From assembly GCF_024168825.1 (NCBI RefSeq), contig NZ_JALJWH010000001.1, forward strand, positions 4,978,972-5,042,971: 64,000 nt of DNA. Reading direction: 5' to 3'. The translations under genes and the position numbers were made by a program. Below are positions 2,436-24,301 of the stretch, one piece after another. The number at the start of each line of letters is the position of its first letter. Positions within the stretch are counted from its first letter, which is position 1. The stretch comes from Paenarthrobacter sp. A20 (GTDB lineage: Bacteria > Actinomycetota > Actinomycetes > Actinomycetales > Micrococcaceae). Under the pieces are notes generated by a model. It worked only from the letters and a program-made list of their open reading frames with translations. It made no database searches and was not told where the DNA came from.

Positions 2436-3347
2436 ATGACTACCTCAACCCTTCCCCGCAATCGCCGCAAGAAGCCCCTCAATTGGCGCCGGATCGGCGC
2501 GTGGGTGCTTGTCGCCGTCGCCGTCGCCGTGACCGTTGCCCCGTTCCTCTGGATGCTGCGGACGGCACTGTCGAGCAACAGTGCACTGGCCTCCAACGCC
2601 GGGAACCTCCTGCCCGCCGACTTCAGCTGGGGCGCTTTCAAGCGCGTCCTGGGCCTGCAGACCACCGAAGAGGCAATCGCCGACGGCGGTTCCGGCGCGG
2701 CCATCAACTTCTGGCTCTACCTCCGGAACTCGGTCATCTTCGCCAGCATCACCACAGCCGGCCAAGTGTTCTTCAGCGCTATGGCCGCCTATGCCTTTTC
2801 ACGGTTGCGCTGGCCGGGCCGGAACAAAGTGTTCGCCGTCTTCCTGACCACCATGATGGTCCCGCCGATCTTTACGGCGCTGCCGAACTTCCTCATGATC
2901 AAGAACCTTGGGCTGTTGAACACCATGGCCGGGATGTCCCTGCCGTTCCTGTTCATGACCCCGTTCGCCATCTTCTTCCTCCGCCAGTTCTTCCTCAGCA
3001 TGTCCCGCGAGGTGGAGGAAGCGGCAATGCTCGACGGCGCCAAGCACCTGCGCATCTTCTTCCAGATTGTGCTTCCCAACGCCGCAGCCCCTATCGCCAC
3101 GCTGGTGCTGCTGACCTTTATCGGTCAGTGGAACGAGTACTTCTGGCCGCTGCTGGTGGGCCAGGACGAGAACGTCCGGGTGCTCACCGTTGGCCTCAGC
3201 GTCTTCAAGTCCCAGTCCCCCCAAGGCGCCCTGGACTGGTCCGGGCTCATGGCCGGGACCCTGGTCGCAGCGCTCCCGATCTTCCTGCTGTTCATCGCCT
3301 TCGGCAAGAAGGTAGTCAACTCCATCGGATTCTCCGGAATCAAGTAA
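2436..3347 (+). CDS. Carbohydrate ABC transporter permease (MalG-like)
   Basis: Second permease of the importer, 303 aa. The ATG at 2436 was chosen because it gives the usual short basic N-terminus (MTTSTLPRNRRKK) before the first membrane helix and follows an AAGGAAA site; the open frame extends further upstream but overlaps the previous gene. The EAA loop is EEAAMLDGAKHLRIFF, followed by the conserved LPNAAAP segment. It starts 26 bp after the first permease, so the two are co-transcribed and should form the heterodimeric channel. Confidence 0.9.
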   Translation: MTTSTLPRNRRKKPLNWRRIGAWVLVAVAVAVTVAPFLWMLRTALSSNSALASNAGNLLPADFSWGAFKRVLGLQTTEEAIADGGSGAAINFWLYLRNSVIFASITTAGQVFFSAMAAYAFSRLRWPGRNKVFAVFLTTMMVPPIFTALPNFLMIKNLGLLNTMAGMSLPFLFMTPFAIFFLRQFFLSMSREVEEAAMLDGAKHLRIFFQIVLPNAAAPIATLVLLTFIGQWNEYFWPLLVGQDENVRVLTVGLSVFKSQSPQGALDWSGLMAGTLVAALPIFLLFIAFGKKVVNSIGFSGIK

Positions 3348-22493: not shown

Positions 22494-22565
22494 GCCGGGA
22501 CCTGTCCTGACCCCTTCATGCGGCCGCCGGCGAATAGTCCAGGCCACGCATACCCTTAGGGCAAA

Positions 22566-22604
22566 GAAAACCCCGGGGCGTCGCTCGTAACGCCCCGGGG
22601 TTTC
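22566..22604 (-). terminator. Intrinsic terminator of the peptide precursor gene
   Basis: 13-bp GC-rich stem (22568-22580 with 22591-22603) and 10-nt loop, followed on the minus strand by TTTTC. It lies 15 bases after the stop of the secreted peptide gene. Confidence 0.82.
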
Positions 22605-22619
22605 TTCACTGCAGTTGAT

Positions 22620-22847
22620 TTACATAGGATCCGGCCAGTTGCCGATGGACAACGTCGTGTACGTCGGCGGCGTGGATGTTGTGGACTTCGTCGGCGCAGC
22701 GATGCGCATGGGATCAGGCCAGTTGCCAATGGCACTGATGGTGCTGCTGGAGTCCACTGCCGGAGCAGCAGACACGACTGCGGGAGCCGCAACCGCTATT
22801 GTCAGTGCGCCCGCCACGGCCACTGAAGCGATGATTTTCTTGAACAT
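22620..22847 (-). CDS. Secreted precursor with duplicated octapeptide IGNWPDPM (candidate signal)
   Basis: 75-aa protein. Residues 1-27 are a clear Sec signal peptide (basic MFKK, long Ala/Val core, cleavage near VSA-AP). The remaining 48 residues contain IGNWPDPM twice, at 40-47 and at the very C-terminus 68-75, joined by a Thr/Ser/Pro-rich spacer. The two DNA copies differ at three positions, all silent. GGGGA precedes the ATG and a strong terminator follows the stop. The gene diverges from an Xre/TPR regulator 126 bp away. In Firmicutes, RRNPP receptors are encoded beside secreted precursors that are cut to short C-terminal peptides; this layout is the same. Receptor binding is inferred. 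Alternative: a small secreted protein of unrelated role. Confidence 0.75.
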   Translation of the reverse strand: MFKKIIASVAVAGALTIAVAAPAVVSAAPAVDSSSTISAIGNWPDPMRIAAPTKSTTSTPPTYTTLSIGNWPDPM

Positions 22848-22905
22848 GGTATTTCCCCAATGCGAGTCGGATTCGTTATGGAAATTGCGCGGTCCCTGTT
22901 GACAT

Positions 22906-22938
22906 ACATTGTAAAATGTTTTCCACAGAGACTGTCAA
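22906..22938. promoter_or_regulatory. Divergent promoter with palindrome between peptide and regulator genes
   Basis: ACATT-GTAA-AATGT (22906-22919) is an inverted repeat in the middle of the 126-bp intergenic region. On the minus strand TTGACA (22933-22938) and TACAAT (22908-22913), 19 bp apart, make a plausible promoter for the peptide gene with the palindrome over its -10. TAAAAT (22912-22917) could be a -10 for the regulator. The Xre protein is the natural candidate to bind here. Confidence 0.45.
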
Positions 22939-22973
22939 GGTTTAGGTCAAAAGACACCTGTAGGAGGGGACCC

Positions 22974-24239
22974 GTGGGAAACGGATTCGGCGAGAAGCTA
23001 CGTGCCGAACGGCTCGAACGTGGGTTAACGCAGGCCGAGCTCGGCAAAAACCTGTATTCGCCCAGCTACATTTCGCTCCTTGAGACCGGCCGGCGTGAGC
23101 CCACAGCCGAGGTCATCGAAGAGCTGGCCCGCCGGTTGGAACTGGCGCCGAAGGCCTTGGAAGCGTGGAGCCAACCCGTTTCCGTAAGCGACGCCGAATA
23201 CGTCCTCGCTGGACTCTATGCCCGGCAAGCCTGGGACCTTCGCGACTACCAACTCGCCGCCAGCCACGCTGCCACCGCCGCTCAGATCGCCCTTGAGGCC
23301 AAGAACAACAGCGCCTGGTGGAACATGACGTACATGCAGGCCGAGTGCGTGATGAAGCAGGGCCACCTCAAAGAATGCCAACAGATCGTTGAACATCTGC
23401 TGGAACATCCCATGGCCACCGAATCCGCAGGCCTCGGAGTGCGTGCGTGGCAGATGCTTGCCGCAGTGTGTCACGGACAAGGTCAGCTGGCCACCGCCGT
23501 CGAACATGCAAAGCAGGCAGTGAAGCTGTGCGAGCAGCTGCCCAAGGGATCCACCCTCATCATCGGAGCTCACCGCGCCCTGATCGGTGCCCTTGCCGAG
23601 AGCGGCAAGCTGGACGAAGCATGGACGTACTGCCTGGCCATGATCGATCACATGGACGAGCACTCCATGTCGCAGCTGGCCGGGGAAGTTGCCTGGGTGG
23701 TGGGCAACGTTGCCTTCATGCGCCACGACTACGTCGAAGGCATCAAGCACCACGAGCGTGCAGCCAAGCTGCTCTCCCCAGCCAACGACATCGAGCTGTG
23801 GGCCCGGTTCAACAAGGCCTCCGCAGCGGTCCGCTTGTCCTCGGGCATCGTGGAGCCGGAAACACTGTCCGCCATTGAGCGCGCCGAACTGGCGCTGTCC
23901 ATCGTGGGCGGAAACAAGACGGACCAGCTGGAGGTCGCCTTCATTCGCGCCCGCTGGCTGTACCTGACCGGCGACATTCCTGCCGCCGTCGAGAAGCTCC
24001 GCGAAATCCATGCCGACCGAAAGGTCCTGGCCCGACACACCGCCGGCGAGGTTTCGCTGCTGCTGGGCAAGTCCCTGAAAGCAGCTGGGGAAGCCTCTGA
24101 GGCGCTGCAGTTCCTGGAAGAGGCCCAGCACGACTTCAGCGCTGCCGGGGCCTCTGACAGGGTCCAGCAGGCCATGGATGCCGTCCTCGAGATCCGCCTC
24201 GCCGAGCGCCGCGCCGCGAAGGAACACTCCGGAGCCTGA
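22974..24239 (+). CDS. Xre-family HTH regulator with TPR domain (RRNPP-like receptor candidate)
   Basis: Cytosolic regulator of 421 aa. Residues about 5-60 form a Cro/C1-type helix-turn-helix (LRAERLERGLTQAELGKNL, SPSYISLLETGRREPT). The rest is helical with repeated TPR-like units, for example LYARQAWDLRDYQLAASHA, GQGQLATAVEHAKQAV and GEASEALQFLEEAQHDF. This two-part build is that of the RRNPP peptide receptors (PlcR, PrgX, Rgg). The GTG at 22974 was chosen because GGAGGGG lies five bases upstream. It is divergent from the secreted octapeptide precursor. Members of the family import their peptide through an oligopeptide permease, which is not in this window. Target genes beyond its own promoter are unknown. 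Confidence 0.82.
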   Translation: MGNGFGEKLRAERLERGLTQAELGKNLYSPSYISLLETGRREPTAEVIEELARRLELAPKALEAWSQPVSVSDAEYVLAGLYARQAWDLRDYQLAASHAATAAQIALEAKNNSAWWNMTYMQAECVMKQGHLKECQQIVEHLLEHPMATESAGLGVRAWQMLAAVCHGQGQLATAVEHAKQAVKLCEQLPKGSTLIIGAHRALIGALAESGKLDEAWTYCLAMIDHMDEHSMSQLAGEVAWVVGNVAFMRHDYVEGIKHHERAAKLLSPANDIELWARFNKASAAVRLSSGIVEPETLSAIERAELALSIVGGNKTDQLEVAFIRARWLYLTGDIPAAVEKLREIHADRKVLARHTAGEVSLLLGKSLKAAGEASEALQFLEEAQHDFSAAGASDRVQQAMDAVLEIRLAERRAAKEHSGA

Positions 24240-24251
24240 ATTAACCCAATA

Positions 24252-24301
24252 AGTCGCAGTTAAGTACGTTTTGACCGCTCAAAACGTACTTAACTGCGAC
24301 T
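24252..24301. repeat. Hairpin family B, copy 1
   Basis: Perfect 23-bp stem (24252-24274 with 24279-24301), loop CCGC. The outer part AGTCGCAG and inner CGTTTTGA recur at 38923 and 61355. It sits between convergent genes and could end transcription in both directions. Confidence 0.85.

Follow-up and report, generated by a model that had tools for sequence, protein, structure and literature searches.

In the genome of the soil actinobacterium Paenarthrobacter sp. A20 we analysed a stretch of 64,000 nucleotides (contig NZ_JALJWH010000001.1, positions 4,978,972 to 5,042,971; called the window below). Within it, the gene for a small peptide precursor lies divergent from the gene for an Xre/TPR regulator, a protein with an N-terminal Xre-type helix-turn-helix (HTH) and a tetratricopeptide-repeat (TPR) part. 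A preliminary description of this locus had proposed an RRNPP-like signalling circuit in an actinobacterium, and we have followed up this proposal by sequence comparison and structure modelling. Published papers are cited, by their PMC numbers, from excerpts.

A peptide precursor divergent from an Xre/TPR receptor

The full translation of the precursor is MFKKIIASVAVAGALTIAVAAPAVVSAAPAVDSSSTISAIGNWPDPMRIAAPTKSTTSTPPTYTTLSIGNWPDPM (open reading frame (ORF) 22620-22847, minus strand), which agrees exactly with the 75 residues and the two IGNWPDPM copies, one of them C-terminal, that had been described. Its N-terminus, K-K followed by a hydrophobic stretch, is consistent with the Sec signal peptide predicted for it. 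Export signals were called, here and below, by a hydrophobicity rule and not by SignalP; the rule missed the precursors at loci L254 and L136 and the leaderless peptides, which were picked up by eye. The precursor has no Pfam family above the cut-off. The exact DNA pattern for GNWPDP occurs at two sites in the whole 5.4 Mb genome, both within this gene, and a protein-level search of the genome for further IGNWPDPM loci returned weak matches only (E-values 0.002 and 0.125). With a looser motif pattern there were 163 genome matches and, for the reversed control, 121; this pattern was dropped. The gene does have a ribosome-binding site (RBS) of its own, a modest one. The terminator ascribed to it is likely to be the hairpin 3' of the gene (Table 1), for which the folding statistics speak and which is absent from the calls of the consensus terminator scan.

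Across a divergent gap of 126 bp, coordinates and Pfam domains (HTH_31, TPR_12) confirm the regulator. Its right end had been placed correctly at 24239, and its start is best read as the GTG at 22974. The structure model (predicted local distance difference test score, pLDDT, 93.4) predicts a TPR fold, with eight helical hairpins after the HTH. The definition of RRNPP(A) receptors asks for 5-9 TPR motifs in a superhelix, with an optional HTH (PMC9765709, excerpt), and Pfam and the model place such a superhelix with an N-terminal HTH in this protein. We observed that W241, G244, N245, W276, N280 and W328 (numbering of this receptor, P0002) are invariant across a 34-row alignment. In the model, N245 and N280 sit on the first helices of consecutive TPRs, and the invariant residues would line the TPR groove; in RRNPP receptors a conserved Asn touches the peptide backbone in this groove (PMC6458997, excerpt). 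PlcR was the top natural regulator in a sequence-profile search (E-value 2.9e-8), outscored by four rows of designed PPR proteins. The Foldseek matches of the model also include PlcR, and the model resembles Rap, NprR and AimR. An in-frame TAG or TAA was reported for some of the receptor matches.

Table 1. Features of the divergent gene pair (window positions; MFE, minimum free energy)
Feature	Position	Strand	Basis or remark
75-aa precursor peptide gene	22620..22847, stop included	-	ORF call and translation
Predicted Sec signal peptide, about residues 1-28	22764..22847	-	Sequence MFKKIIASVAVAGALTIAVAAPAVVSAA; cleavage site placed by eye
Repeat 1, IGNWPDPM, residues 40-47	22707..22730	-	Translation
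Repeat 2, IGNWPDPM, residues 68-75, abutting the stop codon	22623..22646	-	Translation
RBS of the peptide gene, GGGGAA, modest	22853..22858	-	In relatives, GGGG or GAGG occupies this position
Hairpin with T-rich 3' arm, 3' of the peptide gene	22561..22609	-	MFE -36.5 kcal/mol, z -6.1
Predicted operator, TTGACA (22899-22904) and TGTCAA (22933-22938), inverted, 28 bp apart	22899..22938	.	Pattern conservation
Conserved element ACATTGTAAAATGT between the boxes	22906..22919	.	Consensus from an alignment of 34 same-genus intergenic regions
Xre-HTH/TPR receptor, 421 aa, GTG start	22974..24239	+	Pfam; genus-wide match; model pLDDT 93.4
RBS of the receptor gene, AGGAGG, strong	22962..22967	+	Sequence
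HTH domain, residues 5-64	22986..23165	+	HTH_31 E-value 7.5e-12, HTH_3 E-value 5.1e-11
TPR superhelix, residues 71-421	23184..24236	+	TPR_12 E-value 1.5e-8 and structure model

Conservation of the pair and of the intergenic boxes

Among the three tests that the preliminary description had named in advance were the co-occurrence of the two genes in relatives and the conservation of the repeat among them. Within the genus, these two came out in its favour. The receptor was matched in the 73 same-genus genomes listed (in two pieces in G053), and the divergent precursor is present in all 37 same-genus loci read, the window's own locus among them. We also read a named set of 80 loci (34 with HTH receptors and 46 with the HTH-less receptors described below); 25 of these receptors recur identically in the unnamed set. 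A precursor with the Trp-Pro (WP) motif lies beside 34 of its 34 HTH-type receptors (33 found by script, L254 by eye) and ends in WPDPM or WPDPV at 31 of them; at L222, L230 and L246 the precursor ORF stops in the linker after one copy. The protein database holds 86 precursor proteins, this one included, of which 82 end in WPDPM or WPDPV; GNWPDP is present in two copies in 57 of these proteins, in four in 16, in three in 8 and in one in 5. Compared across loci, the repeat is constrained at the amino-acid level: the pattern [IVT]GNWPDP[MV], which passes over deviant copies like the GNWADQ remnant of L024, L025 and L027, collected 85 copies at 34 distinct same-genus loci, and these amount to 54 DNA sequences and only 3 amino-acid sequences, the variation being mostly synonymous.

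Outside the genus, the two genes occur together in many genera, though not everywhere. Here we used a sample of 142 distinct receptor ORFs, hand-picked for a spread of genera and paralogues (all from Micrococcaceae except L080), and its fractions are therefore not population frequencies. Among the 94 HTH receptors in it, 54 have an exported peptide beside them (with L136 entered by eye), eight a probable leaderless one, and 32, all in other genera, no recognisable partner (with L138 entered here). These 32 are where co-occurrence breaks down, and where the adjacent short propeptide with an export signal, expected of RRNPP(A) systems and present at the window's locus, is missing. The conserved receptor residues are retained in 27 of them and deviate in five, and these receptors may be orphans or listeners. 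As for the repeat, it is only the Trp-Pro that is kept outside the genus, in such peptides as GNWPDPS, VGIWPNS, FVGNWPDAVAP, ATGNWPNV, PGIWPDS, VWIWPDS, VGDWPHA, VGEWPH and VGNWPDRFYS, with 1-8 WP copies per precursor in other Micrococcaceae genera (eight in the VGDWPHA precursor). The conserved core of the signal would thus be Trp-Pro, flanked by residues that vary, and not the full IGNWPDPM.

The leaderless candidates come from eight loci of two genera. Each is an ORF of 16-32 aa with an RBS and no export signal found, placed similarly to the exported partners and ending in VGDWPD, VGNWPD, RVNWPF or GIGDWPHA/D. The leaderless test was positive at 10 of 43 loci, two of which (L138 and L148) were dropped as likely chance; as its background is high (88 of 2000 draws of random 500-bp window pieces, own locus skipped), it is their common placement, their RBS and their recurrence in relatives that support the eight that were kept, and not the test. 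At L155, a close relative of L066, only a truncated leaderless version is present.

In the intergenic region, the right box of the predicted operator reads on the minus strand as TTGACA, a −35-like hexamer for the peptide gene. On the same strand the element ACATTGTAAAATGT holds a −10-like TACAAT, 19 bp from that box. The core around TGTTGACATACATTGTAAAATGTTTTCCACAGAGACTGTCAAG is highly conserved across 34 same-genus sequences. We observed TTRACA-N28-YGTCA at 50 of the 54 pairs of HTH receptor and exported peptide (34/34 in the genus, 16/20 in others), and at none of the HTH receptors without a peptide (0/32), the leaderless loci (0/8), the HTH-less pairs (0/46) or the HTH-less receptors without a peptide (0/2). 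The boxes are thus associated with an HTH receptor and an exported peptide together. A promoter scan of the locus called no sigma-70-type promoter. Elsewhere in the genome the long-spaced boxes occur at one other place (reversed control, 3 matches) and ACATTGTAAAATGT at three, each with two mismatches; a whole-genome regulon search with the element and the boxes identified no further receptor targets.

Around the pair, a tRNA-Pro gene lies upstream, and the flanking ORFs, read by eye with no family search, are two ABC exporter genes and purC/purD. The gap between the receptor gene and the next gene (purC by this reading) contains, at 24252-24301 of the window, a perfect inverted repeat with two 23-nt arms, which is probably a two-way terminator. 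No genes for enzymes that modify ribosomally synthesized peptides (RiPPs) were recognised by eye beside the pair, and no dedicated search was made.

An HTH-less receptor class and more distant relatives

A second receptor class has no HTH, is about 340-360 aa long and keeps W241, G244, N245, W276, N280 and W328; its model has a pLDDT of 94.4. The copy in this genome (locus L078, G000:C1:4838838-4843812) has a divergent 56-aa precursor ending in SIGWWPN, and Pfam found no DNA-binding domain in the receptor. A WP precursor lies beside 46 of the 48 HTH-less receptors of the 142-ORF sample and at 43 of the 46 HTH-less loci of the named set; those without it are L193, L196 and L197, the last two with only 216 and 82 nt of upstream sequence. 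The peptides of this class vary more (GWWPN, GWWPH, NWWPD, GNWPY, GYWPF, NNWPG, DDWPH, GLWPY, GIWPNPR and others), and the sequence stops one residue past WP in 33 of 46. L078, L092 and L094 have in common the palindrome GTGACTTgaataAAGTCAC, placed between the genes for receptor and peptide. The 46 named loci counted include L208, where an HTH-less receptor of the Arthrobacter type and a WP peptide lie on a contig titled Vibrio cholerae strain 35D (WNZI01000017.1), most likely from a mislabelled or contaminated assembly.

The two classes differ in their surroundings. GGDEF/EAL signatures were found in the flanks, mostly 1.5-2 kb, of 35 of the 48 HTH-less receptors versus 0 of the 94 HTH receptors, and of 35/46 versus 0/34 in the named set; the two sets overlap and their species are related, so that these counts are not independent. 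The signatures lie downstream on the same strand at 30 of the 35 loci, and upstream at 5. At L078, Pfam bears out both domains (EAL, E-value 1.1e-70; GGDEF, 1.4e-41), and a GAF/HisKA/HATPase kinase is encoded upstream of the peptide gene. This neighbourhood suggests that the HTH-less branch is linked to cyclic-di-GMP. At L217, a gene for a small DUF7793 protein (2850-3254; E-value 1.8e-12) separates the HTH-less receptor from the GGDEF/EAL gene.

An order-wide search of 297 genomes gave 21 with a match, 15 of these Micrococcaceae. In another family of the order, one genome has a VGGSWPTSQDP precursor with three WP copies and a second a precursor ending in SDTWPA, while no WP peptide was found in a third (L178). 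In a further family, three genomes (L179, L180, L181) have divergent exported precursors ending in GPGPxCCxx, a peptide of a different type, beside receptors that lack the conserved residues. Across the phylum, 35 of 396 genomes had a match, and 26 receptors outside the order could be placed. A divergent exported mini-ORF was seen at 16 of these 26 (same-locus controls, 50/1110), WP within its last 12 residues at 10 (controls, 0/1164), and Trp, Phe or Tyr before Pro in the same stretch at 15 (controls, 2/1151). Unlike the WP pattern, the last one was picked after the distant tails had been seen, and its 15 cases include a doubtful TTG ORF (L278). Control rates in the same test were 8/4965 for HTH loci and 38/2431 for HTH-less loci, the latter perhaps because some loci hold tandem pairs. 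From one deep order, 15 of 27 genomes had a match; 13 loci were tried and 12 were readable, nine of them already among the 26. Aromatic-Pro tails were present at 10 of the 12, the tails being ANWPKH, ANWPHVP, ANWPHH, AGWPKH, AGWPRH, GYPWPK (twice), GFPWPK, SFPWGGT and SFPGP. The distant receptors lack the Micrococcaceae residues in the wider alignment, so that a common origin of the peptide partners is no more than plausible.

Distant Xre/TPR genes also occur in 25 plasmid records, 22 of them from Streptomyces; in the five records inspected there was no convincing exported WP peptide. At plasmid locus L312 an arginine-rich ORF with a TTG start ends in WPK, but it is doubtful. This ORF and that of L278, both divergent, have the common start SRCQ-GVIVVR, and end in WPK or hold FP near the end. 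In the Streptomyces plasmids L314 (2793-2930) and L315 (2766-2999), the Xre/TPR gene shares four bases with a small ORF downstream of it (45 or 77 aa), which has no WP motif. L290 and L294 have exported mini-ORFs of 33-34 aa on the same strand after the Xre/TPR gene, ending in TWSDGH and SWSDGHL. A search of 50,697 phage records with the receptor P0002 gave no match.

A proposed signalling circuit and its alternatives

Taking these data together, we consider that the pair most likely belongs to a family of WP peptides and TPR receptors that signals in the manner of RRNPP. The 75-residue precursor would leave the cell through Sec, and proteolysis would likely release from it a short peptide with GNWPDPM as its core. 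This peptide would re-enter the cell via one of the oligopeptide permeases (the genome encodes 13 SBP_bac_5 proteins, whose presence is not specific) and bind to the Xre/TPR protein of the divergent gene, in its TPR groove. The Xre/TPR protein in turn likely controls the shared intergenic promoter via the inverted 6-bp boxes 28 bp apart. Since the right box is the −35-like hexamer of the peptide gene, the peptide-free receptor is expected to repress that gene; the peptide would relieve the repression and so give positive feedback. The HTH-less sister branch would likely act as Rap does, by protein contact, on cyclic-di-GMP turnover. We put the probability of this explanation at about 0.82. The circuit proposed in the preliminary description is supported by the pairing and by the conservation of the repeat in the genus, and its scope is wider than one pair: the HTH-less class near cyclic-di-GMP genes, the probable leaderless versions and the distant relatives in the phylum have been added to it. 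We call the pair RRNPP-like; common descent with the Bacillota subfamilies is putative, the profile match to PlcR being countered by the higher scores of designed PPR proteins and, in structure, by generic TPR proteins of equal rank.

In Rap/Phr of Bacillus, the Phr gene follows the receptor gene and the target is of the Spo0F type. Here the genes are divergent, and GGDEF/EAL genes lie near the HTH-less receptors. PlcR/PapR of the Bacillus cereus group likewise joins an Xre-type HTH and TPR receptor to a peptide partner, whereas the present system belongs to another phylum and has a longer TPR part and a WP-core peptide in tandem copies. AimR/AimP, the arbitrium system of Bacillus phages, shares the HTH and the long TPR part, and its operator resembles the predicted one in plan, AimR being reported to bind two inverted 6-mers separated by 25 bp (PMC6458997, excerpt) where we predict 28 bp; in contrast to AimR, our receptor is a core gene of the genus with no phage-record match. 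The probable leaderless mini-peptides beside HTH/TPR receptors in two genera recall LCP/RopB of Firmicutes, where leaderless peptides are known (PMC10518010, excerpt), but are 16-32 aa long with a WP tail. Tandem pheromone copies and peptide-less receptors are both known in RRNPP (excerpts of PMC9765709 and PMC11343458).

Three observations weigh against this interpretation. Generic TPR proteins match the receptor model as well as or better than the regulators by structure, about a third of the HTH receptors in the sample (32/94) have no recognisable peptide, and IGNWPDPM is almost uniform across the whole genus, which argues against strain-specific pherotypes. In one alternative, the receptor does sense the WP peptide, as an indicator of the cell's own state (secretion, passage through the wall, activity of proteases or permeases) and not of population density. 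A peptide almost invariant over many species carries little identity, the receptor is found throughout the 73 same-genus genomes listed, and multi-copy precursors suit a dose-type readout. However, the HTH-less branch diverges strongly around WP, as would be expected for signals under diversifying use, and the peptide-less receptors resemble the eavesdroppers of RRNPPA (PMC9765709, excerpt). We therefore regard a self-report as unlikely.

Less probable still is that the small protein is a secreted effector, an antimicrobial or surface-binding repeat peptide, merely regulated by an Xre/TPR protein that senses something else. Divergent regulator-target layouts are common, repeated tryptophan-rich motifs do occur in antimicrobial peptides, and the 32 HTH receptors without a peptide fit this idea. 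But the HTH-less class, with no Pfam DNA-binding domain (in this genome's copy) and no boxes (0/46), keeps the WP peptide at 46 of 48 receptors, and the probable leaderless versions of 16-32 aa retain the WP tail. Both are hard to explain unless the peptide and the TPR domain interact. A chance ORF or annotation artefact, for which one could cite how common short ORFs are and the missing Pfam family, is already contradicted by the mostly synonymous repeat variation, the RBS, the co-occurrence and the low control rates, and its likelihood is negligible.

Returning to the signalling circuit, the papers that we found do not report a system of this type from the phylum. In the excerpts of the surveys of RRNPP (PMC10075063, PMC9765709, PMC12700828), coverage is confined to Firmicutes and their viruses or elements, and one of the three describes the signals of Actinobacteria as typically small molecules; the Arthrobacter entries excerpted from a review of actinobacterial quorum sensing (PMC4748050) are AAA, LuxR_C_Like and REC only. 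In the full-text literature, leaving preprints and most subscription journals outside, we found no RRNPP-like system for Actinomycetota and none of four motif strings in any paper; in the papers that we found, such signalling is described only from Firmicutes and their viruses.

Whether WP peptides and Xre/TPR receptors make up an ancient signalling superfamily of Actinomycetota, parallel to the RRNPP of Firmicutes and with promoters (via boxes) and Rap-like tuning of cyclic-di-GMP as its outputs, is in our judgement an evenly balanced question. If the proposed circuit is true, intracellular peptide signalling in Actinomycetota would become testable within a single laboratory, since a soil family would offer a conserved peptide that is easy to synthesise, together with candidates for its receptor, operator and genomic output. 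It would also allow cyclic-di-GMP in Gram-positive bacteria to be approached with a peptide, and may provide an outgroup of the kind sought, according to an excerpt of PMC12700828, by the structural phylogeny of RRNPPA.
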